64,000 nt of DNA from Deltaproteobacteria bacterium (GTDB lineage Bacteria > Myxococcota_A > UBA796 > SXON01), in contig BJHF01000002.1 of the NCBI GenBank assembly GCA_014191855.1, forward strand, positions 62,001 through 126,000, written 5' to 3'. Every line of letters starts with the position of its first letter. Within the stretch, counting starts at the first letter, position 1. Below, piece after piece: positions 3,810 through 18,937 of the stretch. The position numbers and the translations under genes are program-made. The notes beneath the pieces were generated by a model. It saw nothing but the letters and a program-made list of their open reading frames with translations, did not search any database and had not been told where the DNA came from.

Positions 3810-3886
<77 letters not shown>

Positions 3887-4091: not shown

Positions 4092-5378
4092 ATGGCTTGG
4101 GGCATCACCGTGAGCGACACGCACAGTCGCAATCGGTGGGGACTCATCGCCATCGCCGCCCTCCTCACCGCATTCGCCGCCTTCGAATCCGGAACCGCCC
4201 TCGCGAACGACGACTTCGGGTACCTGATGTGGGGCCTCCAGACCCGCGACGACCTGCTTGCGTGGGTGAGCGGCCCCGACTGGTTCACCTATCGTCGCCC
4301 GATGAACACGCTCTTGTGGTGGTTATCGGCCCAGACTGGCTTGGACGGCGGGCTGGTGCGGTGGTCACAGGTCGCCCTCTGGGTGAGCTTCGGTGCCACC
4401 CTGTTGACTGCCGCGCGCACCTCGAAGCGCGCGATGGTCACGCTCGTGCTGCTGCTCCTGACCAACCAGGTGTTCGTGGACCTTCTCCAGTGGCGAAGCT
4501 GGCTGACCACCACCGGGAGCCTCGCCTTCGTGGCGCTCGCCGCAATGGCGATGGAGCGCCGCAGTTCCGCCGTGAGCGTCGCCCTCCTCGGCGCGGTGGC
4601 CCTGGGGTTCAAGGAGGTCGGCGCGCTCGCCGTGGCGGTCATCGCCTTGTCGCGACCCGGATACCGAGCCGTGGGAGGATTCCTCCTCGTCGCCGTGTGC
4701 GCGAGCGCCTCGTCCTCGACGCAGAAGCTCGGACTCAGCTTCATCGGGGACAACATCCGCTTCCACGTGGAGACGGTGGCGCTCTTCTTGCCGGCGGTGC
4801 CCGTGCTCCTCGCCGCCCGATTCCCGAGGCTACCTGCCTGGAGTCTAGCCGCCCCCGTGATCCTGCTCGTACTCCCGACGCCGATTCGGGCAGGAGCGGT
4901 CGTCGTCACCGCCGGACTCTTCTTGCTGAGCGAAGCCCGCTGGTTACCCGCCGCCGCTGTGACGATGACCCTGCCACTCCTCGGCGCGGCCCACGCCCGC
5001 CAGTACCTTCTTGAAAGCTGGTCAATACTTCTGTTCGCCCTGACCGCCTCGAAGAAGCTCCCTATGCCTCCCGTCGTCGGGGTGACAATGCTCGTCCTTG
5101 CGGCTCCGTCCGCGATCAACTTTGAGGGCGCGCGCAGCCGCCTCCGCGACCAATTCGCCACCCAACGCGCGTTCCTCCGTGACTTCCACCCACCCCAGGC
5201 CGCACATCTCTACCATCCCGAAGTCGCTTGGTCCTGGGACCTCGACGCGCTGTATTGGGTGCAGGGCGGCGCCACGCTCGACGGTCGCCCTCCCGTCGGC
5301 ACGGAGCCTGTCCAGGTCGGACCGCTATCCGGCGTGTGGGCGGACGTTCGTCCAGTTCAAGGTAGCGGCAGCAAGTAA
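4092..5378 (+). CDS. Multi-spanning membrane protein, possibly glycosyltransferase-like
   Basis: About 428 residues starting MAWGITVSDTHSRNRWGLIAIAAL; the ATG at 4092 puts the first hydrophobic helix right after a short basic N-terminus. About ten hydrophobic segments follow across residues 17-360. The first loop has NDDFGYLMWGLQ and YRRPMNTLLWWLS, a layout (acidic pair in the first periplasmic loop, then repeated TM helices and a soluble C-terminus of about 75 residues) that resembles GT-C-fold glycosyltransferases of the PMT/ArnT kind, but no decisive motif is present. It is the first gene inside the island. Its 3' end overlaps the convergent lipoprotein gene by 22 bp. Function unassigned. 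Confidence 0.6.
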   Translation: MAWGITVSDTHSRNRWGLIAIAALLTAFAAFESGTALANDDFGYLMWGLQTRDDLLAWVSGPDWFTYRRPMNTLLWWLSAQTGLDGGLVRWSQVALWVSFGATLLTAARTSKRAMVTLVLLLLTNQVFVDLLQWRSWLTTTGSLAFVALAAMAMERRSSAVSVALLGAVALGFKEVGALAVAVIALSRPGYRAVGGFLLVAVCASASSSTQKLGLSFIGDNIRFHVETVALFLPAVPVLLAARFPRLPAWSLAAPVILLVLPTPIRAGAVVVTAGLFLLSEARWLPAAAVTMTLPLLGAAHARQYLLESWSILLFALTASKKLPMPPVVGVTMLVLAAPSAINFEGARSRLRDQFATQRAFLRDFHPPQAAHLYHPEVAWSWDLDALYWVQGGATLDGRPPVGTEPVQVGPLSGVWADVRPVQGSGSK

Positions 5379-7165
5379 ACGGAGCCCGAGCCCGAACCGC
5401 CGTAGGATGCGCCTGGGGCGGCGACGGCGAGCTCATCCACTCCATCGCCATCGAAATCACCAGCTTGCTCGATACGATAGCCGAAGCTCTCGCCCGCCGA
5501 CACGCCCTGCGCAGTGAACTGCATGGTCGTAAAGTCGAGGCTGCCCCCAAATTGGCGTTCCCCGGGCATCAACGCGAGGCGACCCTGTTCGGTGTATTGC
5601 GGCCAGTCCTCGGCCAGCACTGCGGCATCAGCCCGACCGTCACCGTCGAAGTCTCCGGCGGCCGCGACGCCGGTGATCCACTCGCCATCGGTGCCGTAGG
5701 TGAGGTAGTTGATCGCCTCGCCCTCGTCCACGAAGCCTGATAGATCGCCGATGTCCCACAACCCGAACGTCCAAGCTCCTGCGATGAAGTTGTCGGCCCC
5801 GTTGTAGTCGGTGTCGCCGATGTTCACCGCGGCGAGCACGCGGCCGGTAGACCAGGTGACGATTCCCGCCTCCGCGGAGTCTTCCAAGCTTCCGGAGACC
5901 GCCGCGCGAGCGTCGATCACATACAGGCCCGCGCTTCCCCCCGTCGTGAGCTGCTCCCCCACCATCAGCCACGGCACTCCGGGGCCGTCGTCGTCAAACG
6001 CCGTGCTGACCGACTCCGCGCCGCTGCCGTCCTGAGTGCCGAACAACACGAGGTCCGCCGTCGACGAGTCGGTGGACAACGAATCCCCGGGCGAGGACCA
6101 AACGTACACCGCACCACGGGCCATGCCTCCGCCCGGGTCGGCCGACGCCGTGATCGCGAACTCCTGGATGCCGTCGCCATCGACGTCATCGAGCCAGAGC
6201 GCATCCGAGCCGAACCAGGCTCCCGCAATCGTGCCCTCGACGGTCAGCGTGGACAGCACATCAACGGAGCCGGTCGCGCCGTCGCAAAGAGCTTGTCCAT
6301 CGAGGACGAATACGGTCCCCTCCCCGTCACGGTCGGAGACCTGCGAGACGGCCACACGACCGGCATCGCTCACGCGGACGGTCGCCGAGAGGTAGACGCC
6401 TGGGCCCGTTCCCGTGGCGTAACCACCGTCATCCGCGGATAAAACGCCGCTCGCACCACGGACCGCGTAGAGCGCGCCCTGCGCCGACTCTACGTACGGA
6501 GCGTTGACGAACAGGCAGTTTTCCTCGGGCCAAGCGGCGATCCGCCTGCCGAATTCGCCGCCCACGGCGACGCCATCGATGCGCGTCGCCGCGGCGTCGG
6601 CACTCCAAACGACAGCGTCGCGAGCGTCCCCGTCGCAATCATTGTCCGTCCCGTCATCCGCCCAGCCCTCGTCGGCAGCTGAGAACACCGCAGGGTCGTT
6701 GTCGTTGCAATCGTCGCCCCCCGCGGCTCCGGCCGCCTCGCCGTCGCCATCGACATCGACCAAGTCGGCACCGTCGCAATCGTCGTCGATGCCGTCGTAC
6801 GGCGTCTCGGTCGCGCCCGGGTTGGCGTCGGGGGCACGGTCATCGCAATCCAGGGCGTTGGCCACGAACCCGTCGGGCGCGTCGCAGCTGGCGGTTCCCG
6901 CGGTTGCGGCGTCGCCGTAGCTGTCCGCGTCGGAGTCGGAAAACCAGACCGGCGCGTTGGCAACCTCCTCGTCTACGTTGTGGTCACAGTCCTGATCGAC
7001 GCCGTCGCAAACCTCCAAGGCGCCGGGGAAGATCGTCGCATCCGCATCGTCACAGTCGTCCTCCTGGGCGTAGGAGTCGCCGTCGTGATCGGTGAGCTCT
7101 TCGAGGCGGCGAAGGTAGACGGCCTCATTGATCAGACAACCCGCGAGCAGAGGCAAAAGGAGCAT
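5357..7165 (-). CDS. MopE-like Asp/Cys-repeat lipoprotein with FG-GAP-like repeats
   Basis: A 602-residue protein. The chosen ATG at 7165 gives a lipoprotein signal, MLLLPLLAGC, with the lipobox Cys at residue 10. Residues about 25-190 hold putative metal-binding repeats of the type DCDDADATIFPGALEVCDGVDQDCD, known from MopE-like secreted proteins and many myxobacterial surface proteins. The rest has FG-GAP-like units such as AAAGDFDGDGRADAAVLAEDW and QAGDFDGDGVDELAVAAPGA, which form beta-propellers in integrin-like proteins. Likely anchored in the outer membrane and Ca2+-binding (family knowledge). It is a paralog of the chromosomal 51564-53702 product, with matching N-terminal order. It lies in the island's left cargo. 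Confidence 0.85.
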   Translation of the reverse strand: MLLLPLLAGCLINEAVYLRRLEELTDHDGDSYAQEDDCDDADATIFPGALEVCDGVDQDCDHNVDEEVANAPVWFSDSDADSYGDAATAGTASCDAPDGFVANALDCDDRAPDANPGATETPYDGIDDDCDGADLVDVDGDGEAAGAAGGDDCNDNDPAVFSAADEGWADDGTDNDCDGDARDAVVWSADAAATRIDGVAVGGEFGRRIAAWPEENCLFVNAPYVESAQGALYAVRGASGVLSADDGGYATGTGPGVYLSATVRVSDAGRVAVSQVSDRDGEGTVFVLDGQALCDGATGSVDVLSTLTVEGTIAGAWFGSDALWLDDVDGDGIQEFAITASADPGGGMARGAVYVWSSPGDSLSTDSSTADLVLFGTQDGSGAESVSTAFDDDGPGVPWLMVGEQLTTGGSAGLYVIDARAAVSGSLEDSAEAGIVTWSTGRVLAAVNIGDTDYNGADNFIAGAWTFGLWDIGDLSGFVDEGEAINYLTYGTDGEWITGVAAAGDFDGDGRADAAVLAEDWPQYTEQGRLALMPGERQFGGSLDFTTMQFTAQGVSAGESFGYRIEQAGDFDGDGVDELAVAAPGASYGGSGSGSVYLLPLP

Positions 7166-7240
7166 GCGTGGTCCGGCGCAGGGGCCGAGCATACCCCGGA
7201 GCGGAGGGTTGGGTCGACGGGGCGCCGGGGCCAGGTTCCC

Positions 7241-10200
7241 TTACCCCAACTTGAAGTTCGCCTCCCCGCTCCGCACGCAGTCCACCAGCTTCTTGTCCAT
7301 CTCCAGCGTTGCCACCGGGTCGCGCACTTCGCGCACCACCGTGGCGACGGGCTGATCGGCGTCGGGCACCTCGACGAGGCGGAGCACATAGCTCTGGCCG
7401 TCAACGCGAGCGCGGTGGAACTCGTTGGTCGTGATGCGGAAGCTGAGCGACGCCGCGCTTGCAACCGCCTTGATCTCGACGCGCTTGAGGGTGGGCCAGC
7501 CTGGATCACCCGGGTCGCCGTCCCACTCGATTAGGTCGAAGCCGGGGCCTCGCTCGGTTGAAACGTCGAAGACGGCTCGGAATGGCTCGACGAGGCCGAG
7601 AATATCGGCATGGGTCGCCGCGGCGAGCGCCGAACCATGCTCCTTCGCCACCGCACGCGCCCGGGTGGCCCCCGCGTTCGTGCTCCACGCGACGCCCGGC
7701 GCTTCACGGCGCTCCACGACGGCCGCGATGAGGGCGGAGCGGTCCGCCGCCGAAAGCCCCACGAACCGCTGCCACAGCCAGCGAAGGCACGCGAATTCCG
7801 CTGCTTCCCCGCGGATAGGATCACCCACCGAACCACCACCGGCGCCGCCACCCCGCCCGGCGACATCAGGCACCGAGCCCGTGAGCACGCCGCCTGACGC
7901 GACCGGCTCGGCGGAAGCGAGGGACAACGGTGTGCTCAGCCACGCCAGAGCTCGCCCTTCCGACTGTTTTTTCTCCGACGAGGCCACCGAGTTGAGCCCC
8001 ACCTCGATCACCTCGGCATCGACCGAACCGATCAGGGTTCGCAGCCAGGCGGGTCGGGCGCTCGCCGTGCAAAGCCCTTCCATCGCCGCCAAAGCGGCGT
8101 CGCCGAGCGCACGCCACTCCACGACCGCCCAACCGACGGCAGGACACGAGCCCACCCCGGCTGGCGCTCCAAGGTCTGCCGTTAGTGCGCCTTCACCCTC
8201 CCACCAGTCGATCCGAAGCACCCTCGCCAGTTCCCCGCGGAACACACCCGCGGCGCTCGCGGCCGGCACCGAAGCCGGCGCCGCGAGCAACCGAGTCGCC
8301 GCCGCCAGCGACGCCAGCCGAACCAGCGCGTCGCGACACGCGGACTCGCCGGCGATCACCATGTCGTTCATCGCCCCCCGGGTTGGCAGCAACGACCCGG
8401 CGTACGCGCGAAGCGGGCCTACAACGTCCACCGTGGCAGCGTCGCCGGCGGCCAAAACCGCCCGCAGCCACCGGACCGACCCCGCCGACCCAACGACCCC
8501 CCGGACTACGTCCTCGCGGAGCGCCGCGTTGGCCTGGAGTACCGGCGGAACCACGGCGTCAAAGTCGGCGGCTACCGCTGCCTCACGCGCCAGCTTTGCA
8601 ACAGCCAGCTCGGCCACCGAGGCGATCAGCTCCTCCACCCTCACGTCCTGGTCCCGCAGCGAGGCGCGCACTTCCTCCACATCCTCGGTGAGGGCCCAAC
8701 GGAAGGTGTGCTCGTAGGTCGGAGCCCCGACGGCGAACGCGATGGCGCGGGCGAGCGTTGCGGCGAGCGGGCGCCCAGCGAGCTCCGCCGCGTCCAGCGC
8801 CTCCCGAGAAGCCACCAGCCCAGGTTGATCGCCCGAACTCAGCCCGGACGGCGGACGCAGGCCGGCTCCACGATGGATCCGGAGCCGCTCAATGCGGTCG
8901 AGGAGCGGACGCGCGTCGCCGCTCGGATCACCTCGTCGGAGGGCGAGCACACCGATGAGCTCGGGCAAGCGTCGCTCCAACGCCGCGCGAAGTTGCACGA
9001 CGAGCGCGGCCGCTTCGGGGGAGTCGTCAGTGACACCCGCGAAGGCAGGCACTGCGGGCTGGGGCGTTTCAGGAGCCCCAAGCGCGGCGACCAACGTGGC
9101 GAAGCGCGGACGATCCCCGCGGTCAACGACGAGCACGAGCTGATGCCGCACCAACCCGACCGGCGGCTGCTCGCGGTAGTTCGCGACCTCAGAGCGAATC
9201 GTCGCGACGTGGCTACCCTTCGTCGCAGCTACGCGAACCGCAACGTAGGCGTCGCCGCGCGTCGCAAGCAACCAGCCGGGCCGCAGCGCGAGATCACGCG
9301 CGCACCAGTCAAATCGCACCGCGTCCGCCACCCCCTGCAGAGCGTCGAGCAGGCGCCGAAGCAGGAGGTTTGCCGCACCGACCCATTGGGTTCGACCCGA
9401 GAGGGGGGGCAGTTCGATGACCATCGCTCCCTCGGGCGGCAGGGTCGCCATCGCTCGCTCAATGTGGTCCGAAAGCAGGGACCATGCCTTGTGGACGGGC
9501 AGCTCGTTCGCGGGGAGGATGCCCAGGGCGCTCGCGAGCGGACGCAAAGGATCAACACCGCTCTCTGGCGCGTGGAGTCGCGCGAGCCACCCTGTCTGCG
9601 ACGTTGCGGCGTCGGCCAGCGATTCGTTGGCGTAGATCAGCGCGTTTGCCGGCCTCGCCGTTGCCTCGATGGCGTGCCGAGTCCAGCTCGGCCAGATCGG
9701 CGTTCGTGCCAATTGCACGCGCAGCAGCGACGGCATCGCCTGGAAGTCCTGGCGGACCGCGTGGTACCCGTGGCATCCCCAGGAGGTGGTGAGCGCAGGC
9801 TCGAGCTCAAGGAGCACCTCGGACAGCGCGGCGCGGACGGCGATCATCGCCGCGGCGTCCTCGACGTCAAGCAGTTCCTCGCTCCACGTCCACGTGAGCG
9901 CAACCGCGTAGTTGTCCCCGCCGCGGTTGGCTGGCGGCCTCCGCTGCGAGCCCGGTCCCGCCGGACAGCCTGGACTGTGCCCCGTCGTGAGGCTGGGGTG
10001 ATGGTGGGACGACCACGCGATCCGTCGCCACTCGCTGAGGACCGGAGCCAGCGAGCCCGGCAGTCCGTGCGGCTTCCCAGCGCTCCACGCCTTCGCGAGC
10101 GCCGGACGGACAGCCCCTGAAATTTCGCCCCCCCCGTCGGCCCAGTGCGCCCAACGAAGCTGCACAACGGGCCCGACGGCCACGCCGAGCGAGAGGAGCA

Positions 10201-12832
10201 GCCGGGCGAGGGCGCGACGAGGATCGGCCGTACCGAGGCGGGTGAGCATATCGACCGCGGGTTTCCATGCGTCGTCATCGATTCCCGCGATGAGCAGGGC
10301 TGGATTCGGCAGCACTGCTCGCGCATTCGCCATCGCCCGGACCGCCCGCGCCCATCGGTCACCCCGTGTGGTGGTTCCGTCGTCGCCGCGGGGCCCGTCG
10401 ATGCGCTCAAGCTCAACCGCCCAGTCGGCCCCGAACGCCAGCTCGTCCGCGCACGCCCAACCCCGCGAAGACGTCGGCACGGACACCCGGCCGAGCCGCC
10501 GCGCGAAGGCGAGGTCGTCCCGCGCGTTCGGAGACGCCTCGCTCATCGCCGCATGAATCCGTTGGGCGTTGATCGCCGCATAGGGGATCGCGGGCCACGC
10601 CGCGCGGTCGAGCAGATCGACGAGCGCGGCGAGGTAGCCGACCAGCTCCGTGCTCTCCGGCGCGGCGTCCGCCAACCGATCTGCGACCTCCTCCGCCAAC
10701 GTGCGGAGGCGCTCCAGCCGCCGCGCCCCCCAGCGCTTCCCGTGCTGGGTGAGCATCGCGACGACGAGCTCGTCGTTCGCCAAGTGCTCGTCCGCGAGGA
10801 AGATGGGGAGCGTGGACGGCGGGGCGGGGAGCGCCGAGATGTCATCCTTGTCGTCGCGGTTGCGCCAAAGAAGCACACGGGCGCGGCGGAGGAACTGGGT
10901 TCCGGCCTCCGTGCGCGCCTGCACTTCGAGTCGAACCAACCTCGTCCCCACTCCGACGTCGCCCGCAGCCGGGACGAGCGGGAGCCGCCCCCTACCCAAG
11001 ACCTCGGCCACGGCAGGCGCGACGTCCCCGCACCCTTGGAGCCAGGCGGCGATGACCCTCACCCAGGCGCGAGCGGCATCGGCGTCGGCGGCAATCGCCA
11101 TCCCCTCCGCGTCGCCGAACGCCTCGACCAGTCGGTTCGCGGTTACGATGGCTCGACCACGATCCGCGAGGAGATCGCCCAGGCCCACCACCGCAGCGCG
11201 CCCGCGACCTGCCGCACCCTCCACCGCAACCATGCGTTCAAAGGCGGCAACACACGAGTCGCTGGCCTGCAGTTCGGGCAGCCGCTGCCCGAGAACGACA
11301 AAAGCGCGGGTTCGCGCCCGGTCGAACAGCAGGTCGCCGCCCTGGGCGGGCGGACCCGCCGCCGTCGGCACACAGGCTGTCGTTTCAAGTGCACCCAGCA
11401 GTCCCTCGATGAACCCCTCAAGCTGGCCGTTTCGCGACTTCGGCCCCTCGGTCGGGACCATCGCCCAGGGCATACACGAAGCAAGCGGTGAACCGGCAGA
11501 GGCCGCGTATTCGGCGGCCGCGACGATTAAGCCTCGCGCATGTTCGAAGATCGAGGCGTTCTGAGCGGCCTGTCGCAGCTCCTTTCGGTTCGGCGTCACC
11601 ACGAAAGGCGCGTGGAGCACAAACGGGAGGCCCGCCGTGGCATGCTCGATGGGGTAGAACAGCGCAAGCGGGCGGTCGCCGCCGCGTGGCGACGCTGCCT
11701 TGGTTGGCACCCGAATCAGCGCGCGGATGGGGGAAGACTCCGGCCTTCCGTCGTCACGCGCCACCTCGAAGGGTGCGGAAAACTCAAGGTAGTCCTGCTC
11801 ACCGGCCAGCTCGGCCACCGGTCCCACCTCACCGAACCGGCCGACGCGAACGCGGATCAGCGTCCGTCGATACCCGGGCCCGCCCGCCCCGAGCGCCGCG
11901 TCAGCCTCCCGGTCGAAGTCGAAGCGCAGGGCACCAACGATGCTGCCCGCCCGGATACGGACGAGGTGTACCTCGCTGAATTGTCCAAGCGTGATCAGCA
12001 CTTCCGGCGTGAGGTCCATCAGGTGCGCCCACGCCTCGTCGGCAGCGTCTCGTCCGTCGGTGCCCTGCACCTGCCACGCACCGTCACCGAAAGGCAGGTG
12101 CACGGTGGTGCGGAACCCGGGGAGCTCGCTCAGCTCGCCCTCGGCGTCCAAGCCCTCCGCGGTGTGGCGCCTGGGCGACCCATCCTCCAGAAGGTCCTCC
12201 AGCAGGTCGGCGTCGTGACCGGCGCGACCATCCAGGAGGTGCGGCGCCCGGAACAGCGGGATCAAGGCTTGGTCGGCCCGCCGGGAAAGAGCGAGGCGCT
12301 CGCCTTCCTCTCCGTTCGTCCGAAGCCGCGAGAGCTCGGCCTCCACGAAACGCCATGTTTCCGAACGCAAAAATCCTACGCGATGGACCTCACCCTCGTC
12401 GGATCGGCTCCGCACGGCGTACCCCGCCGCGCGCAGGATGATCGACTTCAGGCCGATGCCCTTGTGGCCGACGTACCCCGCCTTATCCGCCTTCGTTGAC
12501 CGACCGAGAAGGCACACCGCATCGAGTACGGCGGGGTCCCAGAGCCGGAACGGTGCCCCGTCGTTCGCGACGATCACGCCTGATTCGGTGACCCCGAACC
12601 ACGCCCGGCCGCCGCCGCCCTCGTGGAGCGCATCCCGCGCGTTCTGCGCAAGCTCCAACCAGTAGCGATCCTCGTGGTCGCCGGCGAGCGCGCGCTCGGC
12701 GGCACCCACGGTCAACCACGTCTTCCAGTCCTCGTCGTGCTCCAAGGCGCGAGCCAGGGACGCGAGCCGCTCATCCACGAGGGCGGCGAGTTTCGAGGCT
12801 TCGTCGTGTGCTCTGGGGGAGTCGTCGTTCAT
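7241..12832 (-). CDS. Giant protein: Hsp90-type (sacsin-like) ATPase domain plus C-terminal DUF3883
   Basis: About 1863 residues from ATG 12832. The N-terminal 200 residues form a GHKL/Hsp90-type ATPase: LELAQNARDAL is the N-box and VGHKGIGLKSI a G-box, the arrangement of sacsin-like ATPases. A long middle region has no recognised domain. The C-terminus (EWDGDPGDPGWPTLKRVEIKAV then SFRITTNEFHRA) matches DUF3883, which has a nuclease-like (E-x-K) core. Large proteins with this pair of ends are frequent in defence islands, so a defence role is inferred, not shown. It is divergent from the integrase. A GTG 54 nt upstream is an alternative start. Confidence 0.72.
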   Translation of the reverse strand: MNDDSPRAHDEASKLAALVDERLASLARALEHDEDWKTWLTVGAAERALAGDHEDRYWLELAQNARDALHEGGGGRAWFGVTESGVIVANDGAPFRLWDPAVLDAVCLLGRSTKADKAGYVGHKGIGLKSIILRAAGYAVRSRSDEGEVHRVGFLRSETWRFVEAELSRLRTNGEEGERLALSRRADQALIPLFRAPHLLDGRAGHDADLLEDLLEDGSPRRHTAEGLDAEGELSELPGFRTTVHLPFGDGAWQVQGTDGRDAADEAWAHLMDLTPEVLITLGQFSEVHLVRIRAGSIVGALRFDFDREADAALGAGGPGYRRTLIRVRVGRFGEVGPVAELAGEQDYLEFSAPFEVARDDGRPESSPIRALIRVPTKAASPRGGDRPLALFYPIEHATAGLPFVLHAPFVVTPNRKELRQAAQNASIFEHARGLIVAAAEYAASAGSPLASCMPWAMVPTEGPKSRNGQLEGFIEGLLGALETTACVPTAAGPPAQGGDLLFDRARTRAFVVLGQRLPELQASDSCVAAFERMVAVEGAAGRGRAAVVGLGDLLADRGRAIVTANRLVEAFGDAEGMAIAADADAARAWVRVIAAWLQGCGDVAPAVAEVLGRGRLPLVPAAGDVGVGTRLVRLEVQARTEAGTQFLRRARVLLWRNRDDKDDISALPAPPSTLPIFLADEHLANDELVVAMLTQHGKRWGARRLERLRTLAEEVADRLADAAPESTELVGYLAALVDLLDRAAWPAIPYAAINAQRIHAAMSEASPNARDDLAFARRLGRVSVPTSSRGWACADELAFGADWAVELERIDGPRGDDGTTTRGDRWARAVRAMANARAVLPNPALLIAGIDDDAWKPAVDMLTRLGTADPRRALARLLLSLGVAVGPVVQLRWAHWADGGGEISGAVRPALAKAWSAGKPHGLPGSLAPVLSEWRRIAWSSHHHPSLTTGHSPGCPAGPGSQRRPPANRGGDNYAVALTWTWSEELLDVEDAAAMIAVRAALSEVLLELEPALTTSWGCHGYHAVRQDFQAMPSLLRVQLARTPIWPSWTRHAIEATARPANALIYANESLADAATSQTGWLARLHAPESGVDPLRPLASALGILPANELPVHKAWSLLSDHIERAMATLPPEGAMVIELPPLSGRTQWVGAANLLLRRLLDALQGVADAVRFDWCARDLALRPGWLLATRGDAYVAVRVAATKGSHVATIRSEVANYREQPPVGLVRHQLVLVVDRGDRPRFATLVAALGAPETPQPAVPAFAGVTDDSPEAAALVVQLRAALERRLPELIGVLALRRGDPSGDARPLLDRIERLRIHRGAGLRPPSGLSSGDQPGLVASREALDAAELAGRPLAATLARAIAFAVGAPTYEHTFRWALTEDVEEVRASLRDQDVRVEELIASVAELAVAKLAREAAVAADFDAVVPPVLQANAALREDVVRGVVGSAGSVRWLRAVLAAGDAATVDVVGPLRAYAGSLLPTRGAMNDMVIAGESACRDALVRLASLAAATRLLAAPASVPAASAAGVFRGELARVLRIDWWEGEGALTADLGAPAGVGSCPAVGWAVVEWRALGDAALAAMEGLCTASARPAWLRTLIGSVDAEVIEVGLNSVASSEKKQSEGRALAWLSTPLSLASAEPVASGGVLTGSVPDVAGRGGGAGGGSVGDPIRGEAAEFACLRWLWQRFVGLSAADRSALIAAVVERREAPGVAWSTNAGATRARAVAKEHGSALAAATHADILGLVEPFRAVFDVSTERGPGFDLIEWDGDPGDPGWPTLKRVEIKAVASAASLSFRITTNEFHRARVDGQSYVLRLVEVPDADQPVATVVREVRDPVATLEMDKKLVDCVRSGEANFKLG

Positions 12833-13008
12833 GACCACAACCTTAACCCAGCCAAACACTGACGCCTCACGCCGGTGCGCGAACATCCGGCAAGCATCGC
12901 TTCCTGCAAAACAACCCGAAGGTCATTCGTCGACTACACCTGGTAGCACAAGGATGATACAGAACCGGCGTGTCGCTGGCTCAAACGCCAGCCGCCCCCG
13001 GAGCACCC

Positions 13009-14133
13009 ATGCCCAAGATCGGAGCCCCCTACCGCCGCGGTGACCGCTGGCGGATCGCGTGGACGGACGCCGACAACGAGCGCCGGTTCGCCACGTTCCG
13101 GACGAAGGCGGAGGCCGCAGCCGAGCAGGCTCGCCTGAAAACCGAGACGGCGGCCATCAAGTCGGGTGCGCTCGCCAGACCCCCGGCCGCCCACACGTTC
13201 AACGAGCTCGCCGACTACTGGATGGAGCACCGCGCCTCTCGGAAGCGGTCGGAGAAGGACGACCGGAGCATCATCGAGGCCCACCTCCGTCCTCACTTCG
13301 GGAAGATGCAAGTGACGAAGCTCGACGTGCGGGCGGTGGATGCGTTCCGCCGTCGCGTGGCGGAGGTCGAGCCAGGGAAGAAGCCCCTCTCCGACAAGAC
13401 GATCCACAACCACCTCACCCTGCTGATCTCCATGTTGAACATGGCCGTCGAGCTGCACTGGCTCACATCGGCACCCCGGATCAAGAAGCCCAAACTCGTC
13501 GAGGGCGACTACGCCTGGATCCGCGGAGCGAGCGACATCCACCGCTTCCTGGAGGCCGCGCGCGAAGAAAACCCGGGTATCTTCGAGCTGTACGCCACGG
13601 CCATCTTCAGCGGACTTCGCGCCGGCGAGCTCCTCGGTCTGCGCTGGGACGACATCGAGTTCAGCGGCGAGAACCCGCTGATCACCGTCAAACGGAGCTA
13701 CGATAAGCCGACGAAGACCGGCGCTATCCGCCATGTTCCGCTGATGGACGCGCTCAAGCCGGTCCTGCGCGAGTGGAGGGCGCGCACCCCGGGTACATGG
13801 GTGTTTCCGGGTCGCACCGGGAACATGCAGTCCCCCTCGGCGAGGGTGCTGCAGGAAACGTTCCAACGGGTGGTGGAGCGCGCCGGGATCGCCACGAGCG
13901 GTGAGCGACTGACGTTCCACGATCTGCGCCACACCTTCGCGAGCCACTGGGTGATGCGGGGATGGGACTTGTACAAGCTCCAGAAAGTGCTTGGGCACAA
14001 GAGCGTGCAGATGACCCAGCGCTACGCTCACCTCACGCCCGAGGCGTTCAACGGGCTGAGGGGGTTGCTGCCGGGCGCGGTGCCGGGGGTGGGGGCGGGC
14101 GGCGACGTGGTGGCGATGGGGGGGCGGAGGTAG
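13009..14133 (+). CDS. Tyrosine recombinase / phage-type integrase
   Basis: A 374-residue tyrosine integrase. The N-terminal arm-binding part (MPKIGAPYRRGDRWRIAW) precedes a core-binding SAM-like domain (FNELADYWMEHRASRKRS) and the catalytic domain. All six catalytic residues are visible: Arg204 (SGLRAGELL), Lys236 (KTGAIRHVP), His304 and Arg307 (HDLRHTF), His330 (LGHKS) and nucleophile Tyr339 (RYAHL). It is expected to integrate and excise the island at tRNA-fMet. The start at 13009 has GGAG 5 nt upstream; an in-frame GTG at 12970 is possible. The gene is intact, so the island may still be mobile. Confidence 0.95.
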   Translation: MPKIGAPYRRGDRWRIAWTDADNERRFATFRTKAEAAAEQARLKTETAAIKSGALARPPAAHTFNELADYWMEHRASRKRSEKDDRSIIEAHLRPHFGKMQVTKLDVRAVDAFRRRVAEVEPGKKPLSDKTIHNHLTLLISMLNMAVELHWLTSAPRIKKPKLVEGDYAWIRGASDIHRFLEAAREENPGIFELYATAIFSGLRAGELLGLRWDDIEFSGENPLITVKRSYDKPTKTGAIRHVPLMDALKPVLREWRARTPGTWVFPGRTGNMQSPSARVLQETFQRVVERAGIATSGERLTFHDLRHTFASHWVMRGWDLYKLQKVLGHKSVQMTQRYAHLTPEAFNGLRGLLPGAVPGVGAGGDVVAMGGRR

Positions 14134-14392
14134 GCGAGCCGGTAAACGCCGCCGATCTCGATCACGGACGGAGTGAACAATGCCCTGGCCTCGGTCGGCG
14201 ACTCGACTCGTTGTGGGCCGCGCCGAAGGCCCACCCCGGGCCGGCGAACCGGCAGCGGGGTGGGCGCGGGGGTCTTCGGCGGCTTTTGCCGCGCTGGCCG
14301 GGAGGGAGAGTGGTCAGAACCTGGGCACGGGGCCCGCGTCCGTGAACGGAGGCCATCTGGCCGGCGCCCCCGAATCCGGAGGCGGTCGTGAG
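14134..14392 (-). ncRNA. Non-coding region downstream of the DGR template repeat (possible TR-RNA spacer)
   Basis: These 259 bp between the integrase stop and the TR hold no supported gene. A strong nested hairpin lies at 14230-14264: CCCACCCCG pairs with CGGGGTGGG, and inside it GCCGG pairs with CCGGC around a 4-nt loop. In the Bordetella phage DGR, structured RNA flanking the TR is needed for priming by the RT-Avd complex, so this may be the equivalent spacer. Alternatively the hairpin simply ends transcription of the integrase or the TR RNA. Confidence 0.4.
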
Positions 14393-14514
14393 CTCGCGAG
14401 GCGGAAGCCGTAGTTGTTGTTGGCGTTGCTCGGGGTGTTGTTGTTGCGATAGGCAACCGTCGCGTTCGACGCGTTGTTGTTCCAATTGCCACCCCGAATC
14501 ACACGGTTGGAGCC
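14393..14514 (-). repeat. DGR template repeat (TR)
   Basis: A 122-bp region 46 bp downstream of the RT gene that aligns without gaps to the VR at 16627-16748. The coding-strand TR holds about 33 adenines. Eighteen positions differ from the VR and all eighteen are TR adenines; the other 89 positions are identical. The TR reads in the target frame as [20 protein letters not shown] and onward, with AAC/AAT codons exactly where the target protein varies. Similarity stops at both ends, with G/C mismatches just outside the 3' boundary, as expected for IMH versus IMH* differences. Confidence 0.97.
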
Positions 14515-14560
14515 TGCTCCCTCCTTGCCTCGCTCAACGTCGCTCGCCGAGAGGGGCGCG

Positions 14561-15559
14561 TCAACCTTCGCCGCCGCCCGCCACGATCTTCTGTCGCAAC
14601 CTCAACGTGTCCGCATGGGTGGCCCACGCGAGCACCGAGCCGGCGCGCCGCTGGGCGTCCTCGTCGCTGAGCAGTCCCGCAGCAGACAGCAGCCGCAGCG
14701 TGCGAAGCCGGCGTCGAAGCCGACGAACCCGGACCGAGTCGAGCCGGACGAGGCGCGGCCAAATGCGGAAGCCGAGGTAGGGAACTCCCGCGCACACGGG
14801 CGCGACAATCGTGGCCTCGGTCTTGAGCGCGAGGCCAAGCTCGGCGTTCACCCACGTTTCCGCCCGCGTGGCCCAGGCCCGCACGGACGCGTTGTCGGGG
14901 CCGAACCACAACACGTCATCCATGTACCGAACGAGGGCCGGGACGCGGAGCGTGCGGCGCGCGAATTGGTCGAAGAACGAGAGATAGAAGTTCCCGAAGT
15001 GCTGGGACGTGAGGTTGCCGATGGGGATGCCGGTGGCGGCCCCCGGGGCGCCCACTACGAGGATGCGCTCGACGACCGTACGGAGGCGCGCGTCCGTCAA
15101 ACAAGCGGCCAGCCTCGCGAGGAGACGATCATGGGGGACAGTCTCAAAGAAGTGGCGTATGTCAAGCTTTACGAACCAGGGGTGGAGACGGGTGTGGCGC
15201 TGGGCGCGCAGCACGGCGGCATGAGAGCCCTTGCCCGGGCGGCAGGCGTAGCTATCGTGATCGGCGCGGGCTTCGAACAGGGGATTCAGCTCGGCGCAGA
15301 CGGCATGGTGAACGACGCGATCGCGAAACGCCGCCGCGGAGATCGTGCGGGGCTTCGGCTCACGGATGCGGAACGTCGTATGCGCGCGCGGCATCCAGGT
15401 CCCGGCGAGCAGTTCCCTCTCCATAATGAGCACCTCCGACTCAAGATCGGCTAGGAACGCGGCGACCTCGCGGGAAGCTCCGTGGCCGCGCGCTGCTCGC
15501 AGCGCGGCCGCACGCAAGGCGCCGAACGAGGCCATCCGGTCGAAGGAGGGGGCGATCAC
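14561..15559 (-). CDS. Reverse transcriptase of a diversity-generating retroelement
   Basis: A 332-residue RT of the group II intron/DGR lineage. The palm motif YMDD is at residues 212-215 ([10 protein letters not shown]), and the SQ motif [14 protein letters not shown] places Ser-Gln at 185-186, the diagnostic position of DGR and intron RTs. Earlier motifs are visible ([23 protein letters not shown]). There is no maturase or endonuclease domain. DGR RTs copy the TR RNA with errors at adenines, and the cDNA then replaces the VR. The start ATG overlaps the avd stop by 4 nt, so the genes are translationally coupled. The TR follows its stop by 46 bp. Confidence 0.97.
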
Positions 15560-15903
15560 GGCCGCGATTCGATGTGTTTGCGCCAGCCACCCAGCATGCG
15601 CCCCGCCTCGTCCACGCCTCGGACGACATGTTCGAACCCGCCGGTGTCCAAATACCTGCGGTCGTGGGCGAGCCGCAGCAGCACGTGGAGCCGCACGAGC
15701 AGTAGGTCGGCTTCGGCGAGCAACACCCGCTTTCGCGGCGCCGGCGCCCAGCGCGCCTCGGCGATGCGCTCCAGAAAATCCAGCACGATCCCGTCGATGC
15801 GGCCGGCGAAGGTGAAGCGGACGACCTTCGGGAACTTCGCTGTTCGATCCAGAAGATCGCCGACGACCCGCTCCCAGAGCACCAGCAGCGCGGGCTCATC
15901 CAC
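15556..15903 (-). CDS. avd: DGR accessory variability determinant (Avd)
   Basis: A 115-residue all-helical protein. FPKVVRFTFAGRIDGIVLDF, LLLVRLHVLLRLAHDRRYLD and VDEAGRMLGGWRKH are the conserved blocks of the Avd four-helix-bundle family, which forms a pentameric barrel that binds RT and the TR RNA and is essential for mutagenic homing. I placed the start at GTG 15903 because the family begins just there and it overlaps the end of the HRDC gene by 8 nt; the open frame extends further upstream, but that part is a basic, low-complexity translation of the HRDC gene in another frame. It is followed by RT with an ATGA overlap. Confidence 0.93.
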   Translation of the reverse strand: MDEPALLVLWERVVGDLLDRTAKFPKVVRFTFAGRIDGIVLDFLERIAEARWAPAPRKRVLLAEADLLLVRLHVLLRLAHDRRYLDTGGFEHVVRGVDEAGRMLGGWRKHIESRP

Positions 15904-16387
15904 CGGCTTCGCCAGCGGTGCGGAGCAGGGCGAGCAGGTCATCGGCGTAATCGCGAATGCGCGCCTCGCCGACCCCGTGTACCCCTTCCAGCGCCGCCTT
16001 CGTCTCCGGCCTCGCACGCGAAATATTCGCGAGTTGGCCGTTGGTGAACAGGACGTACGGCGGGCGACCGTCCCGCTTGGCGCGGTCGTTGCGCCACTTG
16101 CGGAGGGCCTCGAAGATGGCGCGGTGTTCGGGTTCGAGCTCGATCGTCGCCTCCGACTCCCCCCTCCGGCCCTCGGCCACCTCCCTCCGGTGGGGGGAGG
16201 ACGAAGCGCCGCGACTCGTCGCCTCCCGATACCGCACCACCATCGTGAGCGTCGGCACCCCGTCGTGAACGAACCAGTGCTCGGTGGCGTCTATCGCGTC
16301 GTGCTCTGCGAAGAAGGCGGTCAGCGCGGTATCGTCAAACGTGCCCGCCACCGGATCGAGCTTGAAGGTGAACATTCGCATCTTCAT
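15896..16387 (-). CDS. HRDC-domain protein associated with DGRs
   Basis: About 163 residues. The N-terminal half (MKMRMFTFKLDPVAGTFDD then ALTAFFAEHDAIDATEHWFV) is the segment typical of DGR-linked HRDC proteins. The C-terminal half is an HRDC domain (IFEALRKWRNDRAKRDGRPP through LANISRARPETKAAL and GVHGVGEARIRDYADDLLALL), a nucleic-acid-binding module of RecQ and RNase D. HRDC proteins are a known accessory of a subset of DGRs and may help cDNA or target handling; their role is not settled. Between the halves is a charged low-complexity insert rich in Ser/Arg/Glu. ATG 16387 is chosen over 16411; 16381 is also possible. Confidence 0.85.
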   Translation of the reverse strand: MKMRMFTFKLDPVAGTFDDTALTAFFAEHDAIDATEHWFVHDGVPTLTMVVRYREATSRGASSSPHRREVAEGRRGESEATIELEPEHRAIFEALRKWRNDRAKRDGRPPYVLFTNGQLANISRARPETKAALEGVHGVGEARIRDYADDLLALLRTAGEAGG

Positions 16388-16613
16388 GCGGAGTCCGTCC
16401 GCGGCATCCACCGCTGGGGGCTATCGCCCCCAGACCCCCATGTGATCGCACGACAACCTCCCTGCCGCCCCCCCACGTCTCCGCGCTCAGGCGGCCGGCC
16501 GGCTACCGCACGGCCAAGCTCGCCCGGCGCTCCCACGTGGGGGGGGGGGGGGGGCGAAAGTCGCTTTTGAGGCCGAGAAAGCGAAGACTTCCAAGCGAAC
16601 AAGGGTTCAAGTA
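16388..16613. other. Intergenic region with 16-G tract and a hairpin next to the VR
   Basis: This 226-bp gap lies between the DGR target and the HRDC gene. It contains an uninterrupted run of 16 G (16539-16554) preceded by CCCAC. Around 16558-16590 AAGTCGCTTT can pair with AAAGCGA-AG-ACTT around a 10-nt loop, about 37 bp beyond the 3' end of the VR. Hairpins just downstream of the VR promote target recognition in the Bordetella phage DGR, so this is a candidate equivalent. No gene is seen. Confidence 0.55.
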
Positions 16614-18056
16614 TCAAGGGATCGACCTCGCGAGGCGGAAGCCGCAGTAGTTGTAGGCGAAGCTCGGGGGGTAGAAGTTGCGATAGGCAACCGCCGCGAG
16701 CGACGCGTCGGTGCTCCAATAGCCACCCCGAACCACACGGTAGGAGCCGGATGCCGGCCCGGGCGGGTCTGACGTCGCGACACCGCTGCCGTAGCCCCCG
16801 TACGCGCTGTCATACCAGTCGTTCGTCCATTCCCAAACGTTCCCGCTCATGTCGCAGAAGCCCCACGCGTTTGCGGCCAACGAGCACCCCGAGTGTGCGT
16901 ACGTTCCCATCGTGTACGCATTCTCGTGCGTCCAAGCTACGTTCGCCGCCGTGTTTGAGCCTGAGTAAGTAGTGTCTACGCCGGCGCGGGCCGCGTACTC
17001 CCACTCCGCTTCGGTGGGCAGGCGGTAGCCCGGGCACGAGTACGGATCCGCGAGGTAGGCGGCGGCCATGTCCGTGCCGTCCGCAAGGTAGCACTCGGTC
17101 AGGCCCTCTTCGGTGGAGAGCCAGTTCGCGTACATTCCCGCGTCGTACCAGGTCATCGTGTCGGCCGGGCAGTCGGCCGTAGTGCCCGTGCAGGGGTAGC
17201 TGGGGAGCGACGAGTAGGTCCAGCTCGTGTTGCTCGGGTCGGTCTCCCATTCCCCGCGCGTGGTCTCCGTTTGGGCAAGGTAGAAGTGGTGGCTGAGCGT
17301 CACATCGTGATCGAGGTAGGAACCGCCCGAGTCACCAAGTCCGCTGCCCATCGAAAACGTGCCGCCTGTAAGGTAGATCATCGTGGCCCCGGAGGCGGCG
17401 CTATACGACGCCGCGCAGCCCGCCAGCACGTCCGGCAGCGAGGCGTCGGTGTCGTCGCAGTCGGTCGCGTCGGCAACGTAGGCAGCGGGCTCGTCGCAAG
17501 CGAGGGTCGTATATGCGGCGTCGCCAAACCCGTCGCCGTCCGTGTCCGCATACCAGGTTGCGGCATCCGCGGCTGAAGACTCATCAACGGTGCCATCGCA
17601 GTCGTTGTCCACGCCGTCGCACACCTCGTCGGCGCCGGGGGAAATGGCCGCGTCGGTGTCGTCGCAGTCCGTCGCGAGCGGGTAGCCGTCCCCGTCCGCG
17701 TCCTCGGTGGCCGTGTCCACTGAAGTGTCCGCCGTATCCACCGCCGTGTCCGAGGTATCTACCGAGGTATCCACGGCCGTATCGGCGGTGTCGCTCGTGT
17801 CGGTGGCCGTGTCCGACGTATCGAGGCCCGTGTCGGCGCCCGTGTCTGTGTCCCCTGTGTCAACGCCAGTTTCACCGCCGGTATCCCCAGTTTCGCCGGT
17901 CTCCGAGCCGGTTTCGCCCGTGTCCACGACGCCCGTGTCCCCCGTCTCCCCGCTGTCCACCTCCCCGCTGTCGCTCGGCTCCACTGCAAAACCGACTTTC
18001 TGCGTGATCTCCGCCGGAAGGATCAGCGTACACCCTGCCAAATAGAGCGCGATCAC
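16614..18056 (-). CDS. DGR variable target: lipoprotein with MopE-like repeats and FGE-sulfatase/C-type-lectin domain
   Basis: A 480-residue protein. GTG 18056 overlaps the upstream stop as GTGA and gives the lipoprotein signal MIALYLAGC (Cys at residue 9). Next is a Thr/Asp/Gly/Glu-rich linker of more than 70 residues with many ETGDTG-like units, then two Asp/Cys MopE-type repeats (DCDDTDAAISPGADEVCDGV and a partner), then an FGE-sulfatase domain (MIYLTGGTFSMGSG, GYRLPTEAEWEYAARAG, WGFCDMSGNVWEWTNDWYD), a C-type-lectin-like fold widely used by DGR targets. The VR covers residues about 437-477 and ends just before the C-terminus. Likely surface-exposed with a diversified ligand-binding face. 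Partner unknown. Confidence 0.93.
   Translation of the reverse strand: MIALYLAGCTLILPAEITQKVGFAVEPSDSGEVDSGETGDTGVVDTGETGSETGETGDTGGETGVDTGDTDTGADTGLDTSDTATDTSDTADTAVDTSVDTSDTAVDTADTSVDTATEDADGDGYPLATDCDDTDAAISPGADEVCDGVDNDCDGTVDESSAADAATWYADTDGDGFGDAAYTTLACDEPAAYVADATDCDDTDASLPDVLAGCAASYSAASGATMIYLTGGTFSMGSGLGDSGGSYLDHDVTLSHHFYLAQTETTRGEWETDPSNTSWTYSSLPSYPCTGTTADCPADTMTWYDAGMYANWLSTEEGLTECYLADGTDMAAAYLADPYSCPGYRLPTEAEWEYAARAGVDTTYSGSNTAANVAWTHENAYTMGTYAHSGCSLAANAWGFCDMSGNVWEWTNDWYDSAYGGYGSGVATSDPPGPASGSYRVVRGGYWSTDASLAAVAYRNFYPPSFAYNYCGFRLARSIP
16627..16748 (-). repeat. DGR variable repeat (VR)
   Basis: A 122-bp region at the 3' end of the target gene, gaplessly homologous to the TR at 14393-14514. 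Eighteen substitutions relative to the TR, all at TR adenines, change 15 residues. Examples are [11 protein letters not shown] to [19 protein letters not shown] to RNFYPPSF and ANNNYG to AYNYCG. The invariant GFRLA follows the last variable codon. All four kinds of outcome at adenines (A retained, or C, G, T) are present, so this VR has been through mutagenic homing. Confidence 0.97.
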
Positions 18057-18937
18057 CACGTCACCGCCGCGACAACGCCGAAGGCCACGCCCGCGCCCGC
18101 TGCGACGTAACAACCGTAGCTGAGCCCGTTTGTCCCCGTCGCCATGCCCTCAAGCTTCGCCCGGTAGTTTGCGCGCTCTTCGTCGCCAACGTCGCCGTCG
18201 AGCGCCAGCTGCGCATCAAAGTCCGCGCGCCCCTCCGCCGCGAGCGCGTAAAGCACGCCCGAGGTGATCAGCGACGCTCCAGAGAGCACCAACCACGGCG
18301 CTCGATGCCCCCACTCGCCGGAGGGCGGTCGCTCCGCCGTTCCCCGCGCGTCGCTCAGGTTCGCTGTCGCCACCGACGATTCGGCCACCGGAACCACCCA
18401 GTCGAAGCCGACTTCGTCCGGCCAGCGGTAATGCGTCGCGAGCACCGCACCCTGCCCGTCGAGCTGCTGCAAGATCGCCGCGCGTAATGACGGGGCCCGG
18501 AGCACGTGCGTACCGTCGGCTTCGATCCAGCCGCTGCCCGGCTTCGGCAGCTCGGCGCCCAGGTCGTCGTGGAGGTAGAGCATGGCGGCTGTGACCTGTC
18601 CGCGGATGGGGTGCCCGTCCGGCAGTAGCGCCGTTGGAATCTGGTGTCCCGGCTCGGTGGCAAACACACCCGCCAGCGCGAGGGGAACCCGGTCGAGCCG
18701 CTGGTCGAGGAAGGCGCCAAGGGCCTCGACGCGATGAATCCGTGCCTGGGCGTTCACGCTCAGCACCTCGGCGGCGCACGACGTCCGCAACTCCAGGGCC
18801 GCGGTGGAGTCCTTGAAGCCAGCGCGATCAGCCTTGGCAAAGGCCGACTCCGCCGAGTTCGCCGCTTCGAGGATGTCGCCCGTGTCGAACATCCGCGGAC
18901 ACTCGGCGAGCGCATGGGTTGCGAGGAGGAGGAACAT
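18053..18937 (-). CDS. Secreted or membrane protein of unknown function upstream of the DGR target
   Basis: A 294-residue protein with a short signal peptide, MFLLLATHALAECPRM. The middle is helical with scattered Cys (CAAEVLS), then ILQQLDGQGAVLATHYRWPDEVGFDWVVPVAES. The C-terminal third has two hydrophobic stretches, APWLVLSGASLITSGVLYAL and CYVAAGAGVAFGVVAAVTW, probable membrane helices. The layout resembles myxobacterial signal-peptide proteins with C-terminal helices found beside PEGA-type genes, but no family is recognised. Its stop overlaps the target gene start (GTGA), so it is probably cotranscribed with the DGR and may help display or export the variable lipoprotein. Confidence 0.6.
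   Translation of the reverse strand: MFLLLATHALAECPRMFDTGDILEAANSAESAFAKADRAGFKDSTAALELRTSCAAEVLSVNAQARIHRVEALGAFLDQRLDRVPLALAGVFATEPGHQIPTALLPDGHPIRGQVTAAMLYLHDDLGAELPKPGSGWIEADGTHVLRAPSLRAAILQQLDGQGAVLATHYRWPDEVGFDWVVPVAESSVATANLSDARGTAERPPSGEWGHRAPWLVLSGASLITSGVLYALAAEGRADFDAQLALDGDVGDEERANYRAKLEGMATGTNGLSYGCYVAAGAGVAFGVVAAVTW

Follow-up and report, generated by a model that had tools for sequence, protein, structure and literature searches.

Lipid-anchored DGR targets of the FGE type are already known. In the available excerpts of PMC4891356, 62% of the DGR targets of Treponema denticola bear lipoprotein signals, so the view of the initial annotation of the DNA described here, that such a target is unusual in itself, cannot be kept. 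Excerpts of PMC10907252 propose FGE-type DGR targets as conflict-system sensors, and give Legionella as the only case in which diversification of a cellular DGR target has been molecularly confirmed. The short repeat PF11617 is named for MopE of Methylococcus capsulatus, a cell-surface and secreted protein (PMC3423442, in excerpt). The ligands and the presentation of cellular DGR targets are mostly unknown in the field.

Here we describe a DGR whose target bears on both questions. As judged by comparison of TR and VR, the cassette has altered an FGE/C-type-lectin domain at adenines within its final 40 codons. Comparison with relatives shows this domain to be one of several interchangeable heads on a lineage-specific unit, which pairs an upstream membrane-type protein with an overlapping lipoprotein.

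Results

A complete DGR in a defence-rich stretch

The window (the whole stretch of DNA analysed, 64,000 nucleotides, G000:C2:62001-126000 of a 6.95-Mb draft genome) holds a complete DGR on the minus strand. Together with an upstream partner gene it spans 18937 to 14393, in the transcription order partner, target, HRDC, bAvd, RT, TR:

18053-18937, minus strand: partner gene whose product has a signal-like stretch at the N-terminus and two hydrophobic segments towards the C-terminus; overlaps the target start (homology, sequence)
16614-18059, minus strand: DGR target gene; the encoded lipoprotein combines a Thr/Asp/Gly linker, a MopE repeat and a variable FGE domain (Pfam; start by homology)
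16627-16748, minus strand: VR core, 122 nt (A-specific changes relative to TR)
15896-16411, minus strand: HRDC-domain accessory protein (PF00570, E 4e-19)
15556-15942, minus strand: accessory protein bAvd, start ATG 15942 or GTG 16017 (PF22296, E 1.7e-11)
14561-15559, minus strand: reverse transcriptase with motif IGNLTSQ (RVT_1, E 3.2e-15; phrog_1423, E 2e-94)
14393-14514, minus strand: TR core, 122 nt, within a wider repeat at 14390-14521 (repeat search and TR/VR comparison)
12970-14133, plus strand: tyrosine integrase adjoining TR (PF00589, E 1e-31)

The locus thus combines an A-type TR/VR pair, bAvd and HRDC accessory proteins and a DGR-type reverse transcriptase, whose IGNLTSQ motif we take to be diagnostic of that type. 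Two other frames were rejected: 15441-15899, which is Ser/Arg-rich and matches no family (the accessory gene is bAvd, in frame 15556-16017), and 12934-14031 (minus strand), which is antisense to the integrase.

Within the ungapped 122-nt core, 18 of 33 TR adenines are changed in VR versus 0 of 89 non-A positions (Fisher p 7e-13). The region 16614-18056 had been called a DGR target, and it does carry a true VR at its 3' end. Adenines occur in 19 TR codons; 15 of these are altered in the window VR, none is able to give a stop, and the ceiling of adenine mutagenesis is about 8e18 proteins. At the VR end, where an IMH site and a hairpin would be expected in a DGR, TR and VR share CGGCTTCCGCCTCGCGAG and then diverge; no hairpin beyond chance was found just after the window VR. 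Nor was a tRNA found near the cassette, the sole tRNA found in the window lying at 3810-3886. We extended the TR/VR analysis to 165 loci: the window, 160 loci from the RT alignment and 4 of order relatives (L079 and L041, though one contig, are both counted). A TR/VR-like pair is present in 136, with template base A in 135 and T in one (L147).

On one side the DGR adjoins a BREX-type row at 20033-42716 (minus strand; BrxHI, BrxD, PglZ, BrxC, PglX and a PglW-like kinase). On the far side of the integrase, 7241-12886 (minus strand) encodes an 1881-aa protein with a NOV_C end and a PADLOC match to TmtA (E 4e-69). The DGR is therefore located in a defence-rich stretch. The spacer that separates the target from the HRDC gene contains a run of 16 G (16539-16554).

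Architecture of the target

The initial annotation described a lipobox, a Thr/Asp/Gly linker, MopE-type repeats and a variable lectin-like domain on one protein. Pfam (FGE-sulfatase PF03781, E 5.6e-42; MopE PF11617, E 7e-12) and the sequence confirm a lipobox, the linker, MopE and an FGE domain on a minus-strand ORF ending at 16614:

18030-18059, minus strand: short signal MVIALYLAG plus lipobox Cys (position kept in 11 homologous lipoproteins)
17706-17972, minus strand: 89-residue Thr/Asp/Gly linker with 25 T, 20 D and 14 G (sequence)
17580-17669, minus strand: full MopE repeat (PF11617), mature residues 122-151 (Pfam, above cut-off)
17439-17462, minus strand: beginning of a second, partial MopE repeat (HMM stretch at E 0.32 and sequence)
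16617-17390, minus strand: FGE/C-type-lectin domain (Pfam; 2y3c by sequence and fold)

The mature protein thus reads lipobox Cys, CTLILPAEITQKVG, linker, full MopE, partial MopE and FGE with VR, the last at mature residues 429-468 of 472. Two MopE repeats had been claimed; one is full and above the Pfam cut-off, while the other is only partial. Pfam describes PF11617 as a putative metal-binding motif, and Ca2+ binding by the target repeats is likewise putative.

We consider GTG 18059 a more likely start than 18056 because four of 11 homologous lipoproteins (L288, L289, L290 and L293) show ATG at that codon. The precursor then has 481 aa. TTG 18113 also stays a candidate and would give a longer, Arg-rich n-region. 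The lipobox L-A-G-C lies at the same place in the homologues, as in a bacterial lipoprotein. Lipidation of the Cys is nevertheless not certain, because the signal from 18059 has nine residues without positive charge. Signals of about nine residues, uncharged in this sense and overlapping the upstream stop codon, occur in the window (18030-18059) and at L285-L290 and L293. In E. coli, the +2 residue serves as an outer-membrane sorting rule for lipoproteins; in the target it is Thr, not Asp.

The modules were also said to be common to at least two other surface proteins of the window. The window has two further MopE proteins (5357-7192, minus strand; 51564-53702, plus strand), and lipobox and MopE are indeed common to all three. 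The Thr/Asp/Gly linker is not: a six-frame regex scan of the window found it in the target gene only, so neither of the other two MopE proteins has it, and such linkers are present elsewhere in the genome. MopE repeats were sought with Pfam and a local HMM, a regex having missed the window protein itself. Searched against its own genome, the target gives 363 matches, most of those listed over the MopE region. We read 22 MopE ORFs in 20 regions of this genome, and 18 have a lipobox; a control run gave 17 of 21 MopE ORFs versus 14 of 169 other open frames, the latter including non-genes.

Among the DGR targets compared, the window's stands alone in its MopE repeat. Pfam found FGE in all 51 uncut targets of related RTs, NACHT in 17, kinase in 8, caspase in 4 and MopE in one, the window's (48 from genome contigs, the window and two from order relatives; L151, with X residues, was left out, as were targets truncated at a contig end and every viral target). 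The local MopE HMM, run on 145 target ORFs with viral and cut ones included, again found only the window's. A lipobox detector, which can miss signals, flags five of the 145 (window, L114, L117, L145 and L175). By eye, the window and L117 are lipoprotein-like; L114, L145 and L175 look like Sec or transmembrane segments. We found no publication in the open-licence literature that brings DGR and MopE together.

The variable head

The closest solved relative of the head is T. denticola variable protein 1 (TvpA, 2y3c), by sequence (E 2e-27), by Foldseek (E 1.4e-15) and by VIA-align (Z 28.5, rmsd 3.0, 250 residues); the folds match and the VR lies at the C-terminus. The DGR proteins TaqVP and Mtd are further down the VIA-align list (Z 11.9 and 11.8). 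The target model has a mean pLDDT of 60.8; in the FGE part, blocks of ten residues score 52-93, and the linker and MopE part is below 50. The active-site Cys pair of true FGE (LCHDSYC in 2q17) has no Cys counterpart in the target, where the matching stretch falls within the VR. We infer that the head probably serves in binding rather than as an FGE enzyme.

A partner-lipoprotein unit with different heads

Pfam gives no match for the partner gene, whose C-terminal hydrophobic segments lie in windows from residues 214 and 271. Each of the 22 genomes in the taxonomic family of the window has a match to this gene family (E up to 1e-5). We examined 12 partner loci with at least 42% identity (own contigs C2, C34, C39 and C228; G043 C121; G046 C48; G034 C189; G030 C20, C116, C160, C184 and C199). 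At 11 of the 12, spread over five genomes, the gene that follows begins on the partner stop or a few bases from it and encodes a lipoprotein. These lipoproteins are similar at the N-terminus, with a hydrophobic signal, a Cys and then a conserved stretch, for example CTLISDVEITEKVG or CILITDPAIDEKVG. The exception is C34, where a kinase follows the partner instead. Among 20 readable, more distant family members, none has an overlapping lipoprotein; in six, a lipobox-like stretch lies no more than about 130 nt away.

The lipoprotein half of the unit consists of a short signal, CTLI...K.G, an Asp/Thr stalk and often MopE. It is the head that changes. Pfam recognises FGE in the window and G043, FG-GAP in G030 C184 and C160, and Kelch in G034; the G046 C48 lipoprotein has MopE and no other head recognised by Pfam. 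The G030 C116 head has a NosD-like match below cut-off, and those of G030 C20 and C199 are FG-GAP-like by eye.

The unit appears to exist without this DGR, because no RT match was found at E 1e-20 in G043, G046 or G034, all of them draft genomes. The FGE end in G043 is VR-like relative to the window TR (18 of 33 A versus 11 of 89 non-A changed), so this gene may be an orphan DGR target.

Variable repeats elsewhere

VR-like sites occur at four further places in the window's own genome, with these changes relative to the window TR: C39, 17/33 A and 4/89 non-A; C134, 21/33 and 7/89; C200, 21/33 and 9/89; C228, 19/33 and 23/89. C39 (L008, about 12897-14898) is a decayed second DGR: the RT is a remnant of its last 54 residues, TR misses about 24 nt, the target is frameshifted and split over frames, and the partner gene holds a stop. 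C134 retains a short FGE relic, broken in two. C200 is a Ser/Thr kinase-FGE fusion, and C228 carries an FGE lipoprotein that has an Asp/Thr linker but lacks MopE, adjoining a further, cut copy of the partner-lipoprotein pair.

The RT of G030 is 75% identical to that of the window, and five remote VRs in this genome are A-biased (A versus non-A: 18/34 v 3/91, 19/35 v 6/97, 16/37 v 4/94, 22/35 v 3/91 and 23/33 v 7/93). Their carriers are three kinase-FGE genes, one Asp/Thr-linker lipoprotein and one gene that is cut off. The G030 TR (L035 1955-2130) contains an extra 14 nt, not a multiple of 3, that is absent from all five VRs; this TR may be dead, or the 14 nt may be an assembly error. Loci L010 (375-1955) and L072 (G030 C46, three genes) carry Ser/Thr kinase-FGE fusions with VRs, one of them with a SAM domain by Pfam. 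These fusions are possible inward-facing trans targets. Cassette targets of order relatives include L040 4126-6729, caspase-like by eye plus FGE, and L043 864-4436, NACHT plus FGE.

In a tree of 29 FGE domains with the VR removed, four kinase heads cluster (support 84/82), and the VR-bearing lipoproteins fall in separate groups, mixed with members without a detected VR. This picture agrees with a VR that was acquired by several FGE genes already in place, and VR loss would give the same tree. At E 1e-20, the RT is found in six of 63 genomes of the order; of the 11 in the genus, only that of the window has it. The patchy RT and the integrase next to TR suggest that the cassette arrived by transfer; the integrase may have carried it.

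Discussion

We propose that the target is a DGR-diversified, lipid-anchored binding protein, a reading to which we give a probability of roughly 65%. Counted in its favour are the adenine-specific VR changes, the RT with its HRDC and bAvd proteins, TvpA as closest relative in sequence and fold, the overlapping lipoproteins with different heads at 11 of 12 partner loci, the lipobox in 18 of 22 MopE ORFs, Thr at the +2 residue, the A-biased VR-like copies elsewhere, the 19 adenine codons free of stop risk and the missing FGE Cys pair. Counted against it are the uncharged nine-residue signal, the kinase at partner locus C34, the low pLDDT of linker and MopE, and the capacity of a lipoprotein to face the periplasm. 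In most related targets, moreover, the N-terminus is of a NACHT, kinase, caspase or other type, so FGE heads often act inside the cell. In the mechanism we envisage, the lipoprotein would be translated coupled to its partner and sorted to the outer membrane, and its stalk would keep the variable face away from the cell. Mutants would be selected for binding changing ligands such as other cells, phages or surfaces. The same or a sister RT/TR would also have acted in trans to rewrite further FGE genes, one of them a kinase-FGE fusion.

The same protein might instead face the periplasm as an internal sensor of invasion, with the upstream membrane protein relaying a signal inward. The proposed sensor role of FGE-type targets, the NACHT, kinase and caspase parts of related ones, the adjoining BREX-type genes and the two hydrophobic segments of the partner all suit such a sensor. 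Yet the long acidic stalk and MopE are common to lipoproteins with FG-GAP or Kelch heads, and no effector gene was recognised next to the target; we regard the sensor as unlikely. Much less credible still is a phage or prophage receptor-binding protein within an integrated element. An integrase adjoins TR and the RT is patchy within the genus, but the lipobox, the stalk and the partner are traits of a chromosomal family, the scanned neighbours are integrase and defence genes, and PHROGs found no tail or capsid family on five proteins. A single-protein RT query of viral contigs gave no match; an alignment query did, its best viral relative being 41% identical. The cassette could also be a recent relic that rewrote its targets earlier and is now inactive, as the decayed C39 copy and the 14 nt in the G030 TR might suggest. 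All cassette genes in the window are open, however, and the VR core is free of non-A changes, which makes inactivity improbable.

We return to the lipid-anchored binding protein, and favour host-adapted lipoprotein display over a phage tail protein, as the initial annotation did. That preference gains from the recurrence of the N-terminus, stalk and upstream gene in relatives (no related RT being found in three), from the prevalence of lipoproteins among MopE ORFs and from the distance of the best viral RT. The surface exposure that was part of the original proposal stays putative.

Because the DGR head sits on a unit that bears other heads in relatives, the lineage offers natural controls: anchor and partner stay the same while heads differ, and a related RT is found in some genomes but not in others. 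These make the display idea directly testable. The 3' ends of existing FGE genes that match TR suggest a route by which DGR targets are recruited. More tentatively, and with considerable doubt, we suggest that the lineage owns a modular display unit with swappable heads into which the DGR has been plugged. The same DGR family would then rewrite in trans both outward lipoprotein heads and inward kinase-FGE sensors of one cell, yielding paired recognition repertoires outside and inside.

How does the locus compare with known systems? With M. capsulatus MopE the target has only the short repeat in common, and copper or calcium binding by the target is putative. The kinase-CLec and STAND-FGE targets of cyanobacteria and Thiohalocapsa share the FGE/CLec head, the VR at the 3' end and remote targets, and their kinase fusions resemble those of C200 and G030 (excerpts of PMC7517822 and PMC10907252); in the window target, by contrast, the head is not joined to any kinase, NACHT or caspase part. 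The Legionella target is likewise a DGR-varied lipoprotein at the surface (Arambula 2013, as cited in excerpts of PMC8144416 and PMC10907252). We found no description in the open-licence literature of the stalk, the partner or the swappable-head unit, which we consider the novel part. The T. denticola DGR with TvpA shares an FGE/C-type-lectin variable protein, lipoprotein targets, an HRDC gene, several remote targets, and gains and losses. To what the excerpts of PMC4891356 mention, the window adds a Thr/Asp/Gly stalk, MopE, an overlapping partner and bAvd.
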